DNA of 34,227 nt from a virus (IMGVR_UViG_3300043446_000313:1-34227); one strand, 5' to 3'. Shown: positions 20,763 to 30,303, counted from the stretch's first letter. Numbers and translations: made by a program. Notes: generated from the sequence alone by a model not told the origin.

Positions 20763-21382
20763 TCACTTACTCCAATTAGGTTCTTCAGCTTCTCAACTTT
20801 GTCGGCCAGTTCTGTCAGAAACTTGGCAACTTCCACTTCCATCTCACCGATCAACACGTTATCGCGTTCAATCCGTTTGACCCACAATTGCGCTCCGGCA
20901 GGCATCCGAGAGTCGAACGACACGAAGTCGCAGTATTCCCTGCCGGTACAAGCCATTTGCCACTGCATTTGCGCCAGGTACTTCGATGGGACTGATCCGT
21001 TAATCAGGGTTTCGATATGGGTGGCCGTATTCGGACATTTGATCTCGACCAACCCCGTAGCGCCCACTAGACCGTCCGGCGAGGCTCCAGCGTCGGGGAT
21101 GGATGGGTGGGCAATGAACCCCACCTCATCCACCATCACGCCGGTATGGGCCTCATATGCCGCCCGAGCGAACGGTTCCTGTTCCGTACCCCACTGCATG
21201 GCCGCATTGGTGAACGATTCGGCCTGTTTGCCGGTGATGCGCTCAACAATTAGCTGCGCCATGTAGTTGTCCCGGCTGGTGCTATAGCCCGATTTGGTAC
21301 GGGCCACAACATCCGACACGCGACTGGCCGTGACCTTACCTAGACGGGCGGCGAACCATTCGTCAGTGCGTTGCTCATCCAT
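20759..21382 (-). CDS. YqaJ-type exonuclease (lambda Exo-like)
   Basis: 207 residues with the PD-(D/E)XK nuclease core: GTEQEP (65-70), ASPDGL with Asp103 and VEIKCP with Glu113 and Lys115. The order and spacing fit the YqaJ viral recombinase/lambda exonuclease family, which digests the 5' strand of double-stranded ends for annealing by the partner. The partner is the ERF gene just upstream, overlapping by 8 bases. Met at 21382 is preferred (an upstream Met would extend far into the ERF gene). Confidence 0.9.
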   Translation of the reverse strand: MDEQRTDEWFAARLGKVTASRVSDVVARTKSGYSTSRDNYMAQLIVERITGKQAESFTNAAMQWGTEQEPFARAAYEAHTGVMVDEVGFIAHPSIPDAGASPDGLVGATGLVEIKCPNTATHIETLINGSVPSKYLAQMQWQMACTGREYCDFVSFDSRMPAGAQLWVKRIERDNVLIGEMEVEVAKFLTELADKVEKLKNLIGVSE

Positions 21383-21947
21383 TTGCCTTGTCCTTCTTGG
21401 CACGTTCAATGCGCGACTTCTTGGCGGCGATTACTCTGGCCTGGGCAGTCTGATCCTGACCGCAGGCAGCGATTGCTTTCTGGTAAATGCTCGCCAGTTC
21501 GTCGCTGGTCGCTGACGCTTCGATGGCCGACACCCAGTCCGTCACATCGACTGCCGGGGCTTTTCGGCTGGCAGCGTTGCCATCGTCATCTTCCGGCGCG
21601 ATCCCGCAAGCAGCCATGAGGCTGTAGCGTCGGGCATAGGTCAGGGCCGATCCGTAGCCCTGCGCGTCTTGCTTTGTGGCCGGAACGTGCAGCCGACCGC
21701 TGCTGATCGTCGCGCCCGATTCGTGCAGGAACACAGTCTCAACAATGACGCCGTTATCGCATTCGTGGCACTGCTGCGTCAGGGCGATGCCGTTGGCGTT
21801 GAGCGCATCGATGACCGCCTCAATGACCGCAGACAGGTCAGCGTATCGGCTGCGGAAATGCGGATTGGTCGAGGTCTTGAGGGCTGGTCCAAACGCTTTT
21901 TGGGCTTTGACCAGTGCCGTTGCGATTTTGCTGAAATCATTTTCCAT
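21375..21947 (-). CDS. erf: ERF-family single-strand annealing protein
   Basis: 190 residues. KTSTNPHFRSRYADLSAVIE (24-43) and the signature SALTYARRYSLMAACGIA with the acidic EDDDG tail mark the ERF superfamily annealases (P22 Erf). The C-terminal half is helical and variable. It anneals single strands made by the exonuclease of the following gene, for recombination and possibly circularisation of the genome after entry. GGAGAA lies 5 bases before the ATG. It overlaps micro-gene 21937-22044 at its start. Confidence 0.92.
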   Translation of the reverse strand: MENDFSKIATALVKAQKAFGPALKTSTNPHFRSRYADLSAVIEAVIDALNANGIALTQQCHECDNGVIVETVFLHESGATISSGRLHVPATKQDAQGYGSALTYARRYSLMAACGIAPEDDDGNAASRKAPAVDVTDWVSAIEASATSDELASIYQKAIAACGQDQTAQARVIAAKKSRIERAKKDKANG

Positions 21948-22783: not shown

Positions 22784-23506
22784 ATGCACTATTACCAGTT
22801 CCATGTTTCGGACTATCTGCACGACACGGCGCATCTGACGCCTGACGAAGATATCGTTTACCGCCGATTGCTCGATCTGTACTACACCAGCGAGCGACCT
22901 ATCCCAAACGAAACCCAAGCGGTTGCCAGACGGATTCGGATGCCTAAACAGGCCGAAATCGTGGCTGCAATCCTGCAAGAATTTTTTATGCTGCAAAGCA
23001 GCGATAATTCATGGCATCACAAGCGATGCGACGAACTGATTGCATCGTATCAGGCAAAAGCCCAAGCAAATCAAAGGAATGGCGCTAAAGGCGGCAGGCC
23101 CAAACGGAACCCACCGGAAACCCAGTCGGTTAGCGAGTCGGAACCCAGTCGTAACCTTAACCAAGAACCAATAACCAATAACCATAAACCAGTATTAAGA
23201 ACCAAGAAGGCGACTGTCGTCGCCGCGCCTGACGGCGTGTCGTTGTCGGTTTGGGAGGGATTTCTGGCAATCCGCAAGGCCAGACGGTCGCCACTGACCG
23301 AGGCCGCGCTCGAGGGCATCCGCAGGCAGGCAGACCTCGCAGGCTGGTCGCTCGAGAAAGCACTGGCCGAATGTAATGCCCGTGGCTGGCAATCCTTCAA
23401 GGCGGAATGGGTAGCACAAGGGTCAGGGCAGAAAGCCGCCCAGACAGCGGCTAATGCGGTTTTATCGGGCCTAACGAGGGGCTTCTTGGGGGTGGATCGT
23501 GAATGA
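22784..23506 (+). CDS. YdaU/DUF1376-type replication initiator-like protein
   Basis: 240 residues. Residues about 1-95 (YYQFHVSDYLHDTAHLTPDE, YRRLLDLYYTSERPIP) are the DUF1376/YdaU domain, a winged-helix-type domain found at the start of phage replication proteins. A flexible polar linker (about 100-145) and a helical C-terminal part with WSLEKALAECNARGWQSFK (about 185-205) follow; the latter pattern is common at the end of phage primosome proteins. Position after Cro equals lambda O. Origin binding is inferred. The stop overlaps the next gene by 8 bases. Confidence 0.85.
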   Translation: MHYYQFHVSDYLHDTAHLTPDEDIVYRRLLDLYYTSERPIPNETQAVARRIRMPKQAEIVAAILQEFFMLQSSDNSWHHKRCDELIASYQAKAQANQRNGAKGGRPKRNPPETQSVSESEPSRNLNQEPITNNHKPVLRTKKATVVAAPDGVSLSVWEGFLAIRKARRSPLTEAALEGIRRQADLAGWSLEKALAECNARGWQSFKAEWVAQGSGQKAAQTAANAVLSGLTRGFLGVDRE

Positions 23507-23885
23507 TTGGCGAGCCGAGGACTTTTGCACCGCCGAACAGGGGTTGGATTATGCGTTTGCCAACATGGGGGCGATCTACGGACAGACCTTTACCCGCAAC
23601 TTTACCGGGATCGACCCGAAGGTTGTTCGAGCAGCCTGGCTGAACCAGTGCGGCCATCTGCTGACCTACCGTCCGGCGCTTGACCACGCATTGCGGCACA
23701 TGAGCGCAGAATACCCGCCATCGGCTATCAAGTTCCGTTACCTGCTGGCCGCGACCGTGATTCCCGAGCGCCCGAAACCGCAGCTTGAGGTACTCAAGAC
23801 GCCAGAGCAACAAGCCGAGAGCCGAAGGCTGGCTGACGAGGCTAGGGCGGCGCTTCGGGCGTTGATCGGGCGGGTGCGTCAATGA
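23499..23885 (+). CDS. Possible helicase loader, lambda P-like position
   Basis: 128 residues, helical. The central WLNQCGHLLTYRPALDHALR and PPSAIKFRYLLA segments fit the W...L-T...G/A-L and PPS..eFr.lC layout of phage replication protein P relatives. Lambda P (233) is longer, so this would be a short version. Coming directly after the YdaU-like gene in an overlap, it would bring host DnaB to the origin. Moderate confidence; the match is by pattern and context only. Confidence 0.5.
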   Translation: MNDWRAEDFCTAEQGLDYAFANMGAIYGQTFTRNFTGIDPKVVRAAWLNQCGHLLTYRPALDHALRHMSAEYPPSAIKFRYLLAATVIPERPKPQLEVLKTPEQQAESRRLADEARAALRALIGRVRQ

Positions 23886-24154
23886 TGATGTTTGAGTGCA
23901 AAACCTGCTACCAGGTCAAAGACCGCAGCGGGTTTCACCGGGATCGAAAGGCAAAGCACGGCATCAAAATCTTTCGCTGCCGCGACTGCTACAAAATCGC
24001 GGGCGGCAAAGAGCGCGAAACCGAGCCGCTGACGGCAGATCAAACCAAGTTGCTGAACCGCTGGCTGTTTGCACCGGTGTCAAGCAGGGTTGACGGCACC
24101 CATAAATGGGGCTACGATTGTGTTGTGTCATTCAGCAAGCCCGAAAGGGTCTAG
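23882..24154 (+). CDS. Small zinc-finger-like protein
   Basis: 90 residues. Two Cys pairs, FECKTCYQVK near the N-terminus and FRCRDCYK at about 31-38, are spaced as a small treble-clef-type zinc finger. The C-terminus carries WGYDCVVSF. ATGATGATG gives three possible starts; the first overlaps the previous stop. A DNA- or RNA-binding role is plausible; no partner is identified. Confidence 0.6.
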   Translation: MMMFECKTCYQVKDRSGFHRDRKAKHGIKIFRCRDCYKIAGGKERETEPLTADQTKLLNRWLFAPVSSRVDGTHKWGYDCVVSFSKPERV

Positions 24155-24162
24155 GAGGTCAA

Positions 24163-24366
24163 ATGGATTGGCGTTCAATGTATTCGTGCGATTACCCGCC
24201 AGAATGGGATGAGGATGACGAGTGCTGTGAGGACGAGGACTGCGATGAACTCACGGACGAGGAAATCGACGATCAAAAGACGGATTTCCTGCTTGAACAG
24301 GAACGCGCCGAGCAGAGTCGGATCGAACAGGAATCGCATGAGCATCCTTGGAAGGGGGGCAGATGA
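24163..24366 (+). CDS. Strongly acidic small protein
   Basis: 67 residues. Residues about 10-36 are almost wholly Asp, Glu and Cys (DEDDECCEDEDCDELTDEEI), then a charged helix rich in Glu and Gln follows. Such charge could mimic DNA, but that is only a guess. The start at 24163 is fixed by AGGAGGTCAA just upstream. ATGA overlap with the next gene. The Cys-rich acidic part might bind metal. Confidence 0.65.
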   Translation: MDWRSMYSCDYPPEWDEDDECCEDEDCDELTDEEIDDQKTDFLLEQERAEQSRIEQESHEHPWKGGR

Positions 24367-24563
24367 GACTCAAAAGCAAATACTACAATAATCGAAGCCA
24401 TGAGGTTTTGACTACGAAAGATTTGGTAGATGTTTGCCGCCCGTCTGATTCTGACCCGTGGACCTGTGCGTTGATTGCGAGAATGATCGACACAATGAAC
24501 CTGACCGACCAGCAAAAACTCGACCTGATCGACCCGCATTCGGAATGGGAGATTGAAAAATGA
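24363..24563 (+). CDS. Duplicated cassette gene A, copy 1
   Basis: 66 residues: MRLKSKYYNN at the start, then a variable stretch, and a strongly conserved end, ARMIDTMNLTDQQKLDLIDP then SEWEIEK. Its paralogue at 24943-25140 shares most of the second half, down to long identical DNA runs (for instance CTGACCGACCAGCAAAAACT). ATGA overlap with both neighbours. Function unknown; no known domain recognised. Confidence 0.7.
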   Translation: MRLKSKYYNNRSHEVLTTKDLVDVCRPSDSDPWTCALIARMIDTMNLTDQQKLDLIDPHSEWEIEK

Positions 24564-24946
24564 ACCACGATGACATCATCCGCATGGCGATGGAGATTGG
24601 CGGCGTTGATAGGCCGCTACAGGGCAGTTCTGCGCTTAAGTTCATGGAAGAGTTCGCCGCCCTTGTCGCCGCAGCCGAGCGCGAGAAATTGCAGCGCGAT
24701 GGATGGCGACAGTGTGCCAAGGGCCAGAGAACAACCCAATATTGCGGGCTATTGCGGAAGGCAGTCGAAGCGGAGCGCGAGGCTTGTGCCAAGCTTGTAA
24801 AAAAGATAAACATGATCCATGTGGCGCAAGAGGCAGGTTTGGCTATGGGGTTCGTGCAAGGAATCGCAGTGATGAATCACGACAATTTGAAGAAAGTAGC
24901 CAATTTGATTGCCGACGCAATCCGTGCGAGGGGGGATGAGAAATGA
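24560..24946 (+). CDS. Duplicated cassette gene B, copy 1 (long form)
   Basis: 128 residues: MNHDDIIRMAMEIGG at the start and AIRARGDEK at the end, as in its paralogues at 25137 and 25400. The centre seems to contain a doubled element: LVAAAEREKLQ (about 35-45) is followed by VEAEREACAKLV (about 70-82), so it may be a fusion of two copies. Helical, soluble. These MNRDD...AEREAC...AIRARG proteins are common in phages of Gram-negative hosts, but I know no function. Confidence 0.7.
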   Translation: MNHDDIIRMAMEIGGVDRPLQGSSALKFMEEFAALVAAAEREKLQRDGWRQCAKGQRTTQYCGLLRKAVEAEREACAKLVKKINMIHVAQEAGLAMGFVQGIAVMNHDNLKKVANLIADAIRARGDEK

Positions 24947-25140
24947 GACTCAAGGACAAAATAGCAAATATCCGTGTTGAAATTGACAACACAGAACACT
25001 TGATCAATTTTTGCCGATCCTCTGATTCTGATTTGTGGACCTGTGAGTTGATTGCGCGAATGATTGACGCGATGGGCCTGACCGACCAGCAAAAACTCGA
25101 TCTGATCGACCCGCGTTCGGAATGGGAGATTGAAAAATGA
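24943..25140 (+). CDS. Duplicated cassette gene A, copy 2
   Basis: 65 residues. The start (MRLKDKIANI) and especially the end (ARMIDAMGLTDQQKLDLIDP, SEWEIEK) repeat gene 24363-24563, while the middle (about 10-30) has changed. Followed in an ATGA overlap by another gene-B paralogue, so a two-gene unit has been duplicated. Confidence 0.7.
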   Translation: MRLKDKIANIRVEIDNTEHLINFCRSSDSDLWTCELIARMIDAMGLTDQQKLDLIDPRSEWEIEK

Positions 25141-25403
25141 ACCGCGATGACATTGAGCGCATGGCACAGGCGGTGGGGTTAGCGTTCGTTTATAACGAGC
25201 GTGATGAAGACGGGTGGATAGAACTGGAACGCTTCGCCATTCTTGTCGCCGCAGCCGAGCGCGAGGCGTGTGAGCAGGCGTGTGACCGTGTTCGCCTGCG
25301 TTACCAAAAAGGGGCAGATAAAACGGGGAGGTTTGACCTACTCAATAAAGCTGACGGCGCTCAAGATTGCTTGATGGAAATCCGTGCGAGGGGGGAGAAA
25401 TGA
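25137..25403 (+). CDS. Duplicated cassette gene B, copy 2
   Basis: 88 residues: MNRDDIERMAQAVGL, LVAAAEREACEQACDRV, then MEIRARGEK. It aligns with the gene-B copy at 24560-24946 and with 25400-25618 at both ends and differs in the middle. Its last bases, TCCGTGCGAGGGGGGAGAAA, hold the ribosome site of the next gene and recur at the other gene-B ends. Confidence 0.7.
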   Translation: MNRDDIERMAQAVGLAFVYNERDEDGWIELERFAILVAAAEREACEQACDRVRLRYQKGADKTGRFDLLNKADGAQDCLMEIRARGEK

Positions 25404-25618
25404 ACCGCGATGACATTGAACGCATTGCAGCCGACGCCGGGATTGTGGTGATTGGCGAAGCTACACTCAAATTGTGCGAATTGGTTGCCGCAGCGGAGCG
25501 CGAGGCTTGTGAGAAAGTGTGTGATGATCGTTCCAAATCCACATTTTGGTTACGGCATCCTGCATATGAGGAAGCTGAAATGTGTGCCGCAGCAATCCGT
25601 GCGAGGGGGGAGAAATGA
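25400..25618 (+). CDS. Duplicated cassette gene B, copy 3
   Basis: 72 residues, shortest complete B copy: MNRDDIERIAADAGI, LVAAAEREACEKVC, then AAIRARGEK. It follows a B copy directly, so the A partner is missing here. Met at 25400 is preferred by paralogy and the GAGGGGGGAG site; an upstream in-frame start would overlap the previous gene. Confidence 0.7.
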   Translation: MNRDDIERIAADAGIVVIGEATLKLCELVAAAEREACEKVCDDRSKSTFWLRHPAYEEAEMCAAAIRARGEK

Positions 25619-25725
25619 CTTTCTTTGAACTCTGGGCCGCGTGTTTCATCGGGATCATGCTGCGCCCGTGGATTGATTCCTTGGTTCGAATTGTGGATGA
25701 CGCGATAACGAGGGGGCAGAAATGA
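25615..25725 (+). CDS. Micro-gene, 36 residues, N-terminal membrane segment
   Basis: 36 residues: MTFFELWAACFIGIMLRPWI followed by a charged tail (DSLVRIVDDAITRGQK). One short membrane helix near the N-terminus. It overlaps both neighbours by 4 bases (ATGA) and has GAGGGGGGAG at the right distance upstream. Function unknown. Confidence 0.6.
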   Translation: MTFFELWAACFIGIMLRPWIDSLVRIVDDAITRGQK

Positions 25726-25829
25726 CCGAATCCGCACTGTTTATGTCGGTTGCAATCTGGGCCGGATGCACTGGTCATCCAATCGGGTGCATTACAGCAT
25801 GTATCCTGGCGTGTGTTGCCCATAAGTGA
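25722..25829 (+). CDS. Micro-gene, 35-residue membrane peptide
   Basis: 35 residues: MTESALFMSVAIWAGCTGHP followed by IGCITACILACVAHK. Hydrophobic along its whole length, with four Cys, enough for one or two short membrane spans. A ribosome site GAGGGGGCAG lies upstream and the ATG overlaps the previous stop. Function unknown. Confidence 0.55.
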   Translation: MTESALFMSVAIWAGCTGHPIGCITACILACVAHK

Positions 25830-25840
25830 AAACAGCCATG

Positions 25841-26038
25841 ATGACACGCGACGAAATCATCCGAACCGCAAAAATTGCAGGGGCAAAGTTCGACAATGAA
25901 TGGAACCTGTCATTGACTGATACCGATACGGTCATGCGGTTTGCCAAACTTCTAATGTTGTTTGAAAACGAACATTGCGCTCAAGCCTGTATTTGCCACC
26001 ATTGCGCTGGAATGGTTCGCGCACGGACTGACAATTGA
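25841..26038 (+). CDS. Diverged cassette gene B relative
   Basis: 65 residues. MTRDEIIRTAKIAGAKF aligns with the MNRDDIERMA start of the gene-B copies, and the end (MVRARTDN) with AIRARGEK; the Glu/Cys part reads FENEHCAQACICHHC. The added Cys-His cluster could bind metal. Start chosen by alignment; GTG 25826 (overlapping the previous stop) and ATG 25838 are alternatives. Confidence 0.6.
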   Translation: MTRDEIIRTAKIAGAKFDNEWNLSLTDTDTVMRFAKLLMLFENEHCAQACICHHCAGMVRARTDN

Positions 26039-26331
26039 GGCGAGCCGCCAAAATTGACGCCAATCAGACAGAAATTGTCGCGGCGTTAAGGAAAGCGGGT
26101 TGCACCGTGCAGAGCCTAGCTGCTGTCGGTAAAGGCGTCCCTGATTTGCTGGTCGGCTATCAGGGCGCCACATACCTGATGGAGGTTAAGGACGGAAAAT
26201 GGAGCCTAACGCCAGACCAGATTACATGGCACGTCAACTGGCGCGGCGGTGCCTTGTGCGTTGTAAACAGTATTGAATCAGCAATTGAAGCATTGAAACG
26301 TGAACATTTTACAAAGACTTTGGAAACTTGA
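26035..26331 (+). CDS. PD-(D/E)XK nuclease-like protein (VRR-NUC type)
   Basis: 98 residues, the length of minimal VRR-NUC domains. Core motifs: Glu13 (NQTEIV), GKGVPDLLVG with Asp37, and MEVKDG with Glu50 and Lys52, then the LTPDQITWH helix. This set is typical of Holliday-junction-resolvase-like phage nucleases. It starts with TTG in a TTGA overlap with the previous stop. In this Nin-like part of the early operon it could resolve recombination or replication intermediates. Confidence 0.8.
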   Translation: MRRAAKIDANQTEIVAALRKAGCTVQSLAAVGKGVPDLLVGYQGATYLMEVKDGKWSLTPDQITWHVNWRGGALCVVNSIESAIEALKREHFTKTLET

Positions 26332-26470
26332 GCGTGAATATTTCTTTGGTCCTCAAGAGGTTACGACTATTCGCAAAGCATCACGATTGATCGACGCGAT
26401 TGCGGCAGCGTACAAATCTGGCGACCTTGAGCAGGTGGGTAAGCTGCTGGAGAAAGAGGGGGCGTTGTGA
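26300..26470 (+). CDS. Small helical protein from a GTG start
   Basis: 56 residues: MNILQRLWKLEREYFFGPQE, then a helical body and the end GKLLEKEGAL. It fills the gap between two nuclease-region genes. The GTG lies 32 bases inside the previous gene, and its stop overlaps the NinB start (GTGA). Composition is sensible for a protein; no motif known to me. Confidence 0.6.
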   Translation: MNILQRLWKLEREYFFGPQEVTTIRKASRLIDAIAAAYKSGDLEQVGKLLEKEGAL

Positions 26471-26868
26471 TCTATGAACTGACGGACTACGCACAGGCCA
26501 AGTCAGTGATGGCTTTTATCTGGCCGCAGATCAAAGAAATGCTGACGTCAGGGCAGCGGTTGCGGTTGGAAGTCAAAAAAGCCAAACGCAGCATTGACCA
26601 AAATGCCAAGTTCCACGCTATGATACGAAACATATCAAAGCAAATGCGTGAAGTTGGATCGTCGTGGTCTGACGATGACTGGAAACGGCTTTTGATAGAT
26701 CAGTGGGCGCATGAAACGGACAAAAACGTGGGGCGAGTCTGCCCCTCTTTGGATGGAGAAAGAGTGGTCCAGTTGGGCTATCAGAGCCACGCTTTCACGG
26801 TTGAAATGGCGTCCGAATTCATCGAATGGCTCTACGCATGGGCCGCGAATCGGTCTATCGAACTATGA
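26467..26868 (+). CDS. ninB: NinB recombination mediator (lambda Orf family)
   Basis: 133 residues, near lambda Orf/NinB (146). KKAKRSIDQNAKFHAMIRNI, the following W-S-D-D-D-W-K-R-L-L and the end FTVEMASEFIEWLYAWAANR are the NinB pattern. The family binds single-stranded DNA and SSB and can replace RecFOR functions, so it would work with the ERF and exonuclease pair made from the leftward operon. GTG start in a GTGA overlap. Confidence 0.9.
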   Translation: MIYELTDYAQAKSVMAFIWPQIKEMLTSGQRLRLEVKKAKRSIDQNAKFHAMIRNISKQMREVGSSWSDDDWKRLLIDQWAHETDKNVGRVCPSLDGERVVQLGYQSHAFTVEMASEFIEWLYAWAANRSIEL

Positions 26869-27197: not shown

Positions 27198-27563
27198 ATG
27201 GAAAATGAAGTCGCAGAGTTTGTGGGCCAGTTGCTTCACAGCGGAACAGTGGCGCACTTTTTCCATTTGTCCACGAACAGCTATGCAGAGCATAAGGCGC
27301 TGCAACGGTATTACGAGCAAATCATTGAATTAACTGATGATTTTGCCGAAAGTTACATGGGCCGTTACGGACAACTTAAGAAGTTTCCAGCCGAGTTCCA
27401 CGAAGGTAAGAAGCCGCTTGATTATTTTGAGCGCATGAAAGATTTTGTCGAGGAAGCGCGTAAAGATTTGCCGCAGGACACCGAATTGCAGAACGCAATT
27501 GATGCCATTGCGGATTTGATTAACACAACGATTTTCCGCATCAAATTTTTGACGAAGGACTGA
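27198..27563 (+). CDS. Ferritin-like (Dps-type) helical protein
   Basis: 121 residues, all helical. HFFHLSTNSYAEHKALQRYY (20-39) followed by IIELTDDFAESYMGRYG resembles the first two helices of Dps/ferritin-like bundles: His20, His23, Glu31, His32, Asp47 and Glu51 lie where metal ligands are expected. The second half has two more helices (DYFERMKDFVEEARKDL and following). Phages do carry such proteins. Metal binding or an oxidase activity is inferred and unproven; ligand spacing does not match one family exactly. Confidence 0.6.
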   Translation: MENEVAEFVGQLLHSGTVAHFFHLSTNSYAEHKALQRYYEQIIELTDDFAESYMGRYGQLKKFPAEFHEGKKPLDYFERMKDFVEEARKDLPQDTELQNAIDAIADLINTTIFRIKFLTKD

Positions 27564-28926: not shown

Positions 28927-29059
28927 GTCCATGACTGAAAAGGCGTTTAAGCACAACATCCGCGCCGAGGTGAAGGCCGGTAAGCCTGTCAAGCAGGCTG
29001 TCGCCATTGCTTACTCCGAGAAACGCGCCGCAAAGAAGGGCAAAGCAAAGAAACGATGA
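28913..29059 (+). CDS. 48-residue basic protein
   Basis: 48 residues: MPLIKSMTEKAFKHNIRAEV followed by KAGKPVKQAVAIAYSEKR and a Lys-rich end. The K-A-G-K-P-x-K-Q-A-V-A-I-A-Y-S core is found in many very small phage proteins (DUF6496-like); function unknown. AGGAGAAGGG gives the ribosome site and the choice of 28913. DNA binding is plausible from charge. Confidence 0.75.
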   Translation: MPLIKSMTEKAFKHNIRAEVKAGKPVKQAVAIAYSEKRAAKKGKAKKR

Positions 29060-30303
29060 AAAAGCCTGTAATCGTATCGAAAACGGTTTCAGAGCTAATT
29101 CCCTACGCTAACAACAGCCGGACGCACAGCGACGCACAGGTCGCCCAGATCGCGGCAAGCATCAAGGAATTTGGCTGGACGAATCCGATACTGATAGACG
29201 GCGCGAACGGCATCATTGCCGGTCACGGACGCCTATTGGCTGCTCGCAAGTTGGGTTATACGGAAGTCCCCACTATCGAGCTAAAGGATATGACCGAAGC
29301 CCAGAAGAAGGCGTACGTCATTGCCGATAACAAACTGGCCCTCAATGCAGATTGGGACACGACTATTCTTGGCCTAGAACTCAATGCCCTAAAAGACGTC
29401 GGGTTCGATCTGGACATTTTGGGCTTTGACGATAAAGAACTGGCAGTCCTGCTGGAGCCGGAACAGGTCGAGGGGCTGACGGATGAGGATGACGTCCCGC
29501 CGCCGCCCGAAGAACCCAAAACCAAGTTGGGCGACATTTATCAGCTAGGCAATCACAGGCTGATGTGCGGGGATTCAACCAGCATTGATGCTGTGGATAA
29601 ACTGATGAACGGCCAGAAGGCCGACATTTGCTTTACCTCTCCACCTTACGCATTAGGCAAATCTATTGCCTTGAGTGGAAATAAATCCATGAAATTGAAA
29701 TCCAGTGCTTATGAAAGCCATCTTGATGATTCAGATTCATGGGATGATTTGATGAACGGATGGTGGAACGCATCATTGGATGCAGTTTCCGAAGGATGGG
29801 TTGTTAATGTGCAACCATTGGCCGGAAATAAAAGGCAATTGATTCAATGGATTAACGATAGATCATCTCGACTTGCAGATATTGCAACGTGGGATAAAAG
29901 TCATGCCGCTCCTCAAATGGCACCGGGAGTCATGGCATCCAGATATGAATGGATGGTCATATTTGGTTCGGAAAACGCCAGCAGGTCAATTCCATGTAGC
30001 GATTGGCAAGGAACAATACAATCTGTGTATACCGCGCCACCGCAAAGAAACAATGAATTTGCTTCAATTCATGGTGCGACAATGCCTGTTCATGTTCCAT
30101 TGTGGGTAATGGAAAAATTGTGCAATACGGCTAAATCTTTTTACGAACCTTTTTGCGGTACGGGAACAACCATAATTGCGGCAGAGAAAAACAACCGTAA
30201 ATGCTATGCGATGGAAATAGACCCCAAGTACTGCGACGTTATCGTCAAGCGCTGGGAAGATTTTACCGGCAAAAAAGCGGAACTTGTGACCGAACGGTCG
30301 TGA
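29056..30303 (+). CDS. ParB-like domain fused to a DNA methyltransferase
   Basis: 415 residues. Residues about 10-100 are a ParB/Srx-like N-terminal domain (NGIIAGHGRLLAARKLG). A Pro-rich acidic linker (about 135-155) leads to a beta-class amino-methyltransferase: motif IV TSPPY (194-198), then a long target-recognition part, then SAM-binding motif I, EPFCGTGTT (364-372). The order IV then I is the class-beta (N6-adenine/N4-cytosine) layout. The SPPY form of motif IV leaves the modified base open. No cognate restriction enzyme lies nearby, so it probably protects phage DNA or marks it for packaging. Bases about 29,650-30,140 are visibly more A+T-rich than the ends of the gene. Confidence 0.88.
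   Translation: MKKPVIVSKTVSELIPYANNSRTHSDAQVAQIAASIKEFGWTNPILIDGANGIIAGHGRLLAARKLGYTEVPTIELKDMTEAQKKAYVIADNKLALNADWDTTILGLELNALKDVGFDLDILGFDDKELAVLLEPEQVEGLTDEDDVPPPPEEPKTKLGDIYQLGNHRLMCGDSTSIDAVDKLMNGQKADICFTSPPYALGKSIALSGNKSMKLKSSAYESHLDDSDSWDDLMNGWWNASLDAVSEGWVVNVQPLAGNKRQLIQWINDRSSRLADIATWDKSHAAPQMAPGVMASRYEWMVIFGSENASRSIPCSDWQGTIQSVYTAPPQRNNEFASIHGATMPVHVPLWVMEKLCNTAKSFYEPFCGTGTTIIAAEKNNRKCYAMEIDPKYCDVIVKRWEDFTGKKAELVTERS

Follow-up and report, generated by a model that had tools for sequence, protein, structure and literature searches.

ATGA junctions chain the nin genes of phage lambda to one another. In lambdoid phages the nin genes form an accessory run; they are short and closely packed, and each is unique or common to few members (PMC4378225). 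Mosaic segments in temperate and defective phages have a median length of around 400–500 bp, about 30% of them with flanking homology, and homology that is short or diverged suffices for recombination by Rad52-like phage proteins, among them Erf of D3 (PMC3945230). In cluster K mycobacteriophages, a conserved stretch of Shine–Dalgarno-bearing DNA, SAS, precedes many small genes of different families, as described in the portion of the published account drawn on here (PMC3203893).

The window analysed here is an entire IMG/VR viral record of 34,227 bases from a freshwater-type phage. Its array of small genes sits in a nin-like place, between the replication region, with an O-like replication gene (22784–23506), and a VRR-NUC-like gene and NinB. 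On the minus strand of the same phage lies a gene for an Erf-like single-strand annealing protein, a candidate recombinase (21375–21947; phrog_2324, E 1.6e-45; PF04404, E 4e-24), and adjoining the slot is a NinB/Orf recombination mediator (26467–26868, plus strand; phrog_72, E 1.3e-29), a candidate helper of exchange. NinB comes after the gene at 26035–26331, which we take to encode the VRR-NUC-like nuclease. An HNH gene, a ParB–methyltransferase fusion, the large terminase and the portal are also encoded in the window. As in lambdoid nin chains, the slot lies between an O-like replication gene and NinB and holds short stop/start-overlapped genes, the content differing between relatives.

Three further genes of the region have matches of their own. 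A small Cys-rich protein (23882–24154) weakly matches endonuclease VII and Lar-like restriction alleviation families; the gene at 27198–27563 matches phrog_858, annotated as a starvation-inducible transcriptional regulator, and is kept beside NinB/HNH in relatives; and the gene that joins a ParB-like nuclease domain to a DNA methyltransferase (29056–30303) gives the region’s best DNA match to annotated phages.

A preliminary description had placed in the array two A+B units, a lone B and a diverged B at 25841, and open reading frames and ATGA overlaps bear out this layout. All genes lie on the plus strand. A1 (24363–24563) is an open reading frame for a 66-aa protein, and the second copy, A2 (24943–25140, 65 aa), shares a 171-nt repeat with the A1 region. 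B1 (24560–24946, 128 aa) carries the middle block twice, the copies separated by an extra insert, and has profile matches over both halves; B2 (25137–25403, 88 aa; profile E 8e-25) is a predicted helical hairpin, and B3 (25400–25618, 72 aa) also matches the profile. From A1 through B1, A2 and B2 to B3, each gene overlaps the next by ATGA. Two tiny open reading frames then separate B3 from B4: a hydrophobic one of 36 aa without a family match, ATGA-chained to B3 (25615–25725), and one of 35 aa overlap-chained to it (25722–25829). B4 (25841–26038) is a diverged 65-aa member with a profile match over positions 1–51 (E 3e-10); both it and the 35-aa frame are 100% identical in L030, a near-identical contig that covers the locus only from just before B4 onwards.

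The repeated DNA with its recurring junction, also noted in the preliminary description, lies far above chance in shuffled sequences. The junction ATCCGTGCGAGGGGG has three exact occurrences, where dinucleotide shuffles give an expectation of 0.03, and GTCGCCGCAGCCGAGCGCGAG occurs three times with up to three mismatches, the expectation being 0.00. The longest direct repeat, 171 nt at 85% identity, pairs 24418–24588 with 24995–25165; shorter ones measure 41 nt (85%) and 35 nt (83–91%). The core of the middle block in B1 (24665–24685), a proposed recombination joint to which joints in relatives map, is repeated exactly in B2 (25245–25265) and with two mismatches in B3 (25484–25504), all on the plus strand. 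Aligning A1B1 with A2B2 leaves high-identity islands at the 3′ two thirds of A and at the N-block, middle block and C-end of B, with poorly aligning cores between them. The proposed pattern of conserved ends around a variable centre thus describes B and fails for A, in which the 3′ part is conserved and the 5′ part diverged. Even for B it needs amending: both ends are conserved as claimed, but there are three conserved blocks, hence two cores.

B is a previously undescribed family of tiny proteins, absent from profile libraries. Starting from the window and its relatives and taking up to 80 loci from each scan, an iterated profile over 190 environmental-phage loci gathered at least 208 B open reading frames, 184 of them distinct. 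Removal of repeat contigs left 178 in 106 loci, 59 loci having one and 47 having two to five, and 32 neighbouring pairs overlap by exactly ATGA; the copy number is therefore variable, from one to five per locus, as had been anticipated. The exact 29-mer of the middle block is present in at least 120 viral stretches, and five bacterial metagenome-assembled contigs, Rhodoferax and Moraxellaceae among them, also carry B.

Neither the array proteins nor the relatives of B matched any family profile in Pfam, PHROGs, NCBIfam or PADLOC; there were stray single-member matches for A3 members (E 0.009–0.036) and two weak PHROG matches for B1 (E 0.035 and 0.097). Neither B2 nor a member from locus L020 matched annotated phages by tblastn. 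A consensus-like B matched Phage DSL-LC05, a Dishui Lake record, and a few Manatee Spring contigs, where the genes are ‘hypothetical’ if annotated at all, with the exception of one weak match under differently named genes. B is thus nearly absent from annotated phage records, and its signature peptides were not found in the literature searched. Because the family is absent from profile libraries, its genes are now annotated only as ‘hypothetical’.

The three blocks read roughly MTRDDIIRMAREAG, LERFAALVAAAEREACAKVC and CAAAIRARGE, around an N-core slot (median 17 aa) and a C-core slot (median 20 aa). Between random members, the DNA of the two cores is at chance similarity (0.46 and 0.48, against 0.44 and 0.45 when shuffled), whereas the blocks are at 0.65–0.71 against 0.51–0.54. 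For shared cores, dN/dS comes to 0.14 (N-cores) and 0.10 (C-cores), values biased downwards because the pairs were picked by protein identity (pooled dS 0.7–0.8). Given cores at chance between members and low dN/dS where shared, cores behave as discrete alleles that seem to be maintained by purifying selection and swapped whole. The expectation that cores would evolve faster than ends is correct in so far as cores are at chance similarity and blocks above it; the low dN/dS points to wholesale exchange rather than fast evolution. Around 120 types of each core were seen, with Chao1 estimates of 617 for N-cores and 442 for C-cores. Nearly every position of the blocks shows more uniform codon choice than expected from composition, and synonymous identity within a locus exceeds that between loci (C-end, 0.65 versus 0.45).

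Variations on this architecture recur. The double middle block of B1 is also found in L004, L149 and L192; unequal pairing at that block would give such an arrangement, with an insert separating the two copies. A third exchangeable insert, IH(S/T)CxxxCxxxxC, precedes the last EREAC/EREQC block in three open reading frames (L004, 7103–7597; L010, at 1420; L149, at 5377) and is possibly a metal-binding module. Another module, YATGHGDT(I/T)EDLL, forms the front or an inserted part of B-like chimeras in L017, L029, L039, L084 and L157.

AlphaFold2 models of B2 (mean pLDDT 90.5; helices 3–12, 24–63 and 66–87) and B3 (89.7; helices 3–12, 20–51 and 54–71) share one layout, a short helix, a loop, a long helix and a return helix. 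In these models the blocks would form the stem of a hairpin, the N-core the loop and the C-core the surroundings of the tip, and a core swap would change exposed surfaces on a constant scaffold. Foldseek gave no match for B in the PDB at E ≤ 0.001. The best VIA-align Z score, 7.7, is one that common helical arrangements also reach (helical hairpins such as bMERB and the RF2 N-terminal domain), and in BFVD the best matches, with E around 0.01–0.05, are to uncharacterised phage proteins and are suggestive only.

The two halves of B genes recur in new combinations. Among 155 parsed proteins (29 of the 184 were unparsed), with identical proteins from matching contigs dropped before counting, and with only cores of at least 70% identity counted, 56 pairs share an N-core and 51 a C-core, compared with none for shuffled cores; N-cores are short, and the pair counts are of non-independent events. 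These divide into 52 pairs sharing only the N-core, 47 sharing only the C-core and 4 sharing both, and in three of the last four the upstream flanks are at 0.95–1.00, marking the same or a near-same phage. With few exceptions, core types with several members are found with at least two partners (16 of 17 N-core types and 16 of 18 C-core types): the N-core IVVTGEAVW is paired with seven C-cores, IKQAIETPHLLMVHELE with four, and the C-core EDIDTEYEGEDVLATWC with five N-cores. IVVIGEATL, the N-core of B3 in our window, is of a type present in several other loci.

The same separation is visible in DNA. Proteins sharing an N-core average 0.86 identity over it, as against 0.49 over the C-core; those sharing a C-core average 0.48 over the N-core and 0.85 over the C-core; and the 200-nt flanks of both are at 0.53–0.56, equal to background. 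In the break map, similarity between N-sharers reaches background about 30 nt past the ERxxC codon, and C-sharers stay at background until about 40 nt before it, such that in both classes similarity starts or stops inside the middle block of around 60 nt. The gene in L159, to judge from its sequence a clear recombinant, consists of the N half of L135 and the C half of L110, and some 32 bases at the joint are identical in all three. Similar upstream flanks were found for 1 of 46 N-sharing pairs and similar downstream flanks for 2 of 42 C-sharing pairs; with flanks so rarely shared, the shared patch is bounded at both ends and spans about 100–140 bp.

The result was reproduced in a second sample, picked solely by an exact middle-block 29-mer, with 42 C-only, 9 N-only and 3 both-sharing pairs; in this sample a crude choice of start codon lowers the N count, and some of the contigs overlap the first sample. 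Here too, the three pairs sharing both cores have upstream flanks 98–100% identical, again the same or a near-same phage. The suggestion that recombination reshuffles the variable cores is therefore upheld, halves recurring in new combinations as patches bounded by blocks. Its placement of the exchange at conserved ends needs revision: blocks do flank the cores, but the main joint lies inside the gene, in the middle block, and it is halves that are shuffled.

We conclude that short-homology recombination at conserved blocks probably assembles B half-genes in a nin-like accessory slot. The array would be a run of B cassettes together with a local, duplicated partner, A, and each B gene the union of an N half (N-block and N-core) and a C half (C-core and C-end), joined in the middle block. 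Pairing of the conserved blocks would mediate the exchange, and unequal pairing would make tandem copies. Candidate agents are single-strand annealing by the phage’s own Erf/NinB-type system and the systems of the host or a co-infecting phage. Erf or RecT was detected with two Pfam models in 16 of 41 B-carrying records, many of which are fragments, and their distribution points to no universal recombinase among these records.

One standing model of phage mosaicism is illegitimate recombination at random points followed by selection (PMC3945230), here for an intact stem, with the conserved DNA incidental. We think it unlikely for this family, while giving it real weight: the joint block is also a structural element of the protein, and if selection kept intact proteins, joints could end up at the same position. 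Yet joints concentrate in a block with codons more uniform than expected, and for the shared segment to end in a block on either side, two joints must be precisely placed in every exchange. That the blocks form a helical stem in the AlphaFold2 models, conserved in protein, also agrees with plain tandem duplication and divergence, whereby A+B was duplicated, B3 budded off, the blocks were structurally constrained and the cores drifted. A1 and A2 are indeed a plain duplication; they are 71% identical and, with an omega of 0.27, look to be under purifying selection. Drift, however, cannot give a core 85–100% identical in DNA that is joined to unrelated partners in many phages, nor chance-level cores while synonymous sites in the blocks stay more alike than expected, which makes duplication alone improbable.

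Chimeras could also arise if assemblers crossed over at an identical middle block; most loci are indeed short-read metagenome contigs, and an exact 29-mer of that block is present in at least 120 viral stretches. But a misjoin would carry the whole flank, and flanks are as rarely shared as the 1 of 46 and 2 of 42 pairs above; moreover, several combinations recur with identical flanks in two or more contigs, in some cases from metagenomes with different numbers (for example, L006/L007). An assembly artefact is therefore very improbable. Two small overlapping genes duplicated together would suit a toxin–antitoxin or other two-component module under amplification, a reading to which we attach hardly any credence, A being without a relative both in IMG/VR and among the 190 loci, B being widespread without A, and no toxin–antitoxin or defence family being matched. 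A diversity-generating retroelement was considered and is disfavoured: PF00078 is absent from the window record and from 11 other B-carrying records, several of them fragments, and cores are replaced wholesale and are unalignable, with no pattern of adenine-targeted point variation.

The C-end block also bears on translation. In the array, on the plus strand, the C-end of B1 (24920–24946) doubles as the Shine–Dalgarno sequence and ATGA overlap of A2, that of B2 (25380–25403) serves B3, and that of B3 (25595–25618) serves the open reading frame at 25615–25725, as indicated by their repetition and by a family-wide codon bias. Among 131 members ending in IRxRG or nearly so, the second arginine is encoded by AGG in 101 and AGA in 19, compared with AGG in 3 of 131 at the first arginine and in 9.8% of arginine codons in long open reading frames of B loci; 116 of the 131 have the ATGA stop/start overlap. 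By this bias and the overlap, the conserved C-terminal peptide is at least partly the next gene’s Shine–Dalgarno sequence, and the earlier proposal that the junction holds the ribosome site thus extends to the whole family. Since the C-end carries this signal, cassettes would be insertable, deletable and swappable with the translation chain kept.

The C-end, alone or with the middle block, is also found on proteins without the N-block, and appears to be portable on its own. IRARG tails with ATGA occur on proteins not recognised as B, in L004 (7591–7785) and in open reading frames ending at L110:1555, L120:7077, L149:5416 and L173:6700. Another modular tail, EWQGLTDEE...IEAKLKEKN, recurs in the same slot of relatives (L031, 4912–5394; L034, 5046–5246; L036, 4656–5183), and its coding end, AAAGGAGAAGAACACATGA, also resembles the next gene’s Shine–Dalgarno sequence in two of the copies checked.

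Relatives with 60–68% NinB identity keep the order Erf, O, the following gene, the VRR-NUC-like gene, NinB and HNH as far as each contig reaches, and synteny around the slot is kept in L031–L039. The slot itself ranges from 14 bp (L038) to more than 1 kb of other ATGA-chained genes, and the window’s own measures 2.15 kb; in L039 the slot contains a chimeric B, and in L037 a B lies on the far side of NinB. Comparison of copy number and content, which the preliminary description had proposed, accordingly finds syntenic relatives without the same fixed array and with differing slot contents. A was also searched for separately, with no relative found in IMG/VR or the 190 loci. The two-gene cassette of the preliminary description is thus duplicated here and, because A is without a relative, local to this phage; the widespread unit is B.

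What B does can be guessed at mainly from its build. Members have no relevant defence or anti-defence match in PHROGs, Pfam, NCBIfam or PADLOC, and neither a recurring partner gene nor a recurring defence link was found among the mixed accessory neighbours, where any one family accounts for at most 3 of 123. These comparisons thus lend no support to a role of B against defence or against the host. Exchangeable surfaces on a constant scaffold, encoded in an early accessory slot, lead us to guess at the binding of varying host or rival factors, and the likely benefit would be that proteins interacting with the host turn over rapidly by recombination early in infection. Tentatively, environmental phages may keep a shared combinatorial library of hundreds of N- and C-core modules and assemble small binding proteins from it by half-gene exchange, with the middle-block DNA maintained as a recombination linker and the terminal peptide as a portable ribosome-binding site, a diversification system that would probably be aimed at host or defence proteins; we hold this picture as a possibility.

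Whether phage mosaicism originates in short-homology recombination or in illegitimate joining plus selection is a long-standing question, and the B family is a natural test bed for it because the same block is reused as the joint in around 100 sharing pairs and the patches are bounded. Within the gene, a single DNA stretch is both protein stem and likely recombination site; at its end, another is both protein end and ribosome-binding site. The family also supplies a rule for finding other modular small phage proteins, namely to look for conserved C-terminal peptides behind which there is in truth a Shine–Dalgarno sequence.

Compared with known systems, the B slot resembles the lambdoid nin region as an accessory run of short genes beside replication genes and NinB/Orf, and differs from it in holding one family in several copies, with half-gene exchange and a C-terminal peptide that is the next gene’s Shine–Dalgarno sequence. 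Diversity-generating retroelements likewise set variable segments in a constant scaffold, but B varies by replacement of whole core alleles and not by point mutagenesis. Unlike SAS, which lies just upstream of starts and, in the portion of that account drawn on here, is not described as a conserved protein end or a recombination joint (PMC3203893), the C-end of B is coding sequence inside the preceding gene. A further parallel is the relaxed-homology mosaicism attributed to Rad52-like recombinases (PMC3945230, PMC2327257), which shares with B its short patches and some edge homology, and this phage encodes Erf and NinB/Orf; in contrast to those mosaics (PMC3945230), the B patches span only about 100–140 bp and reuse the same conserved blocks in around 100 pairs.
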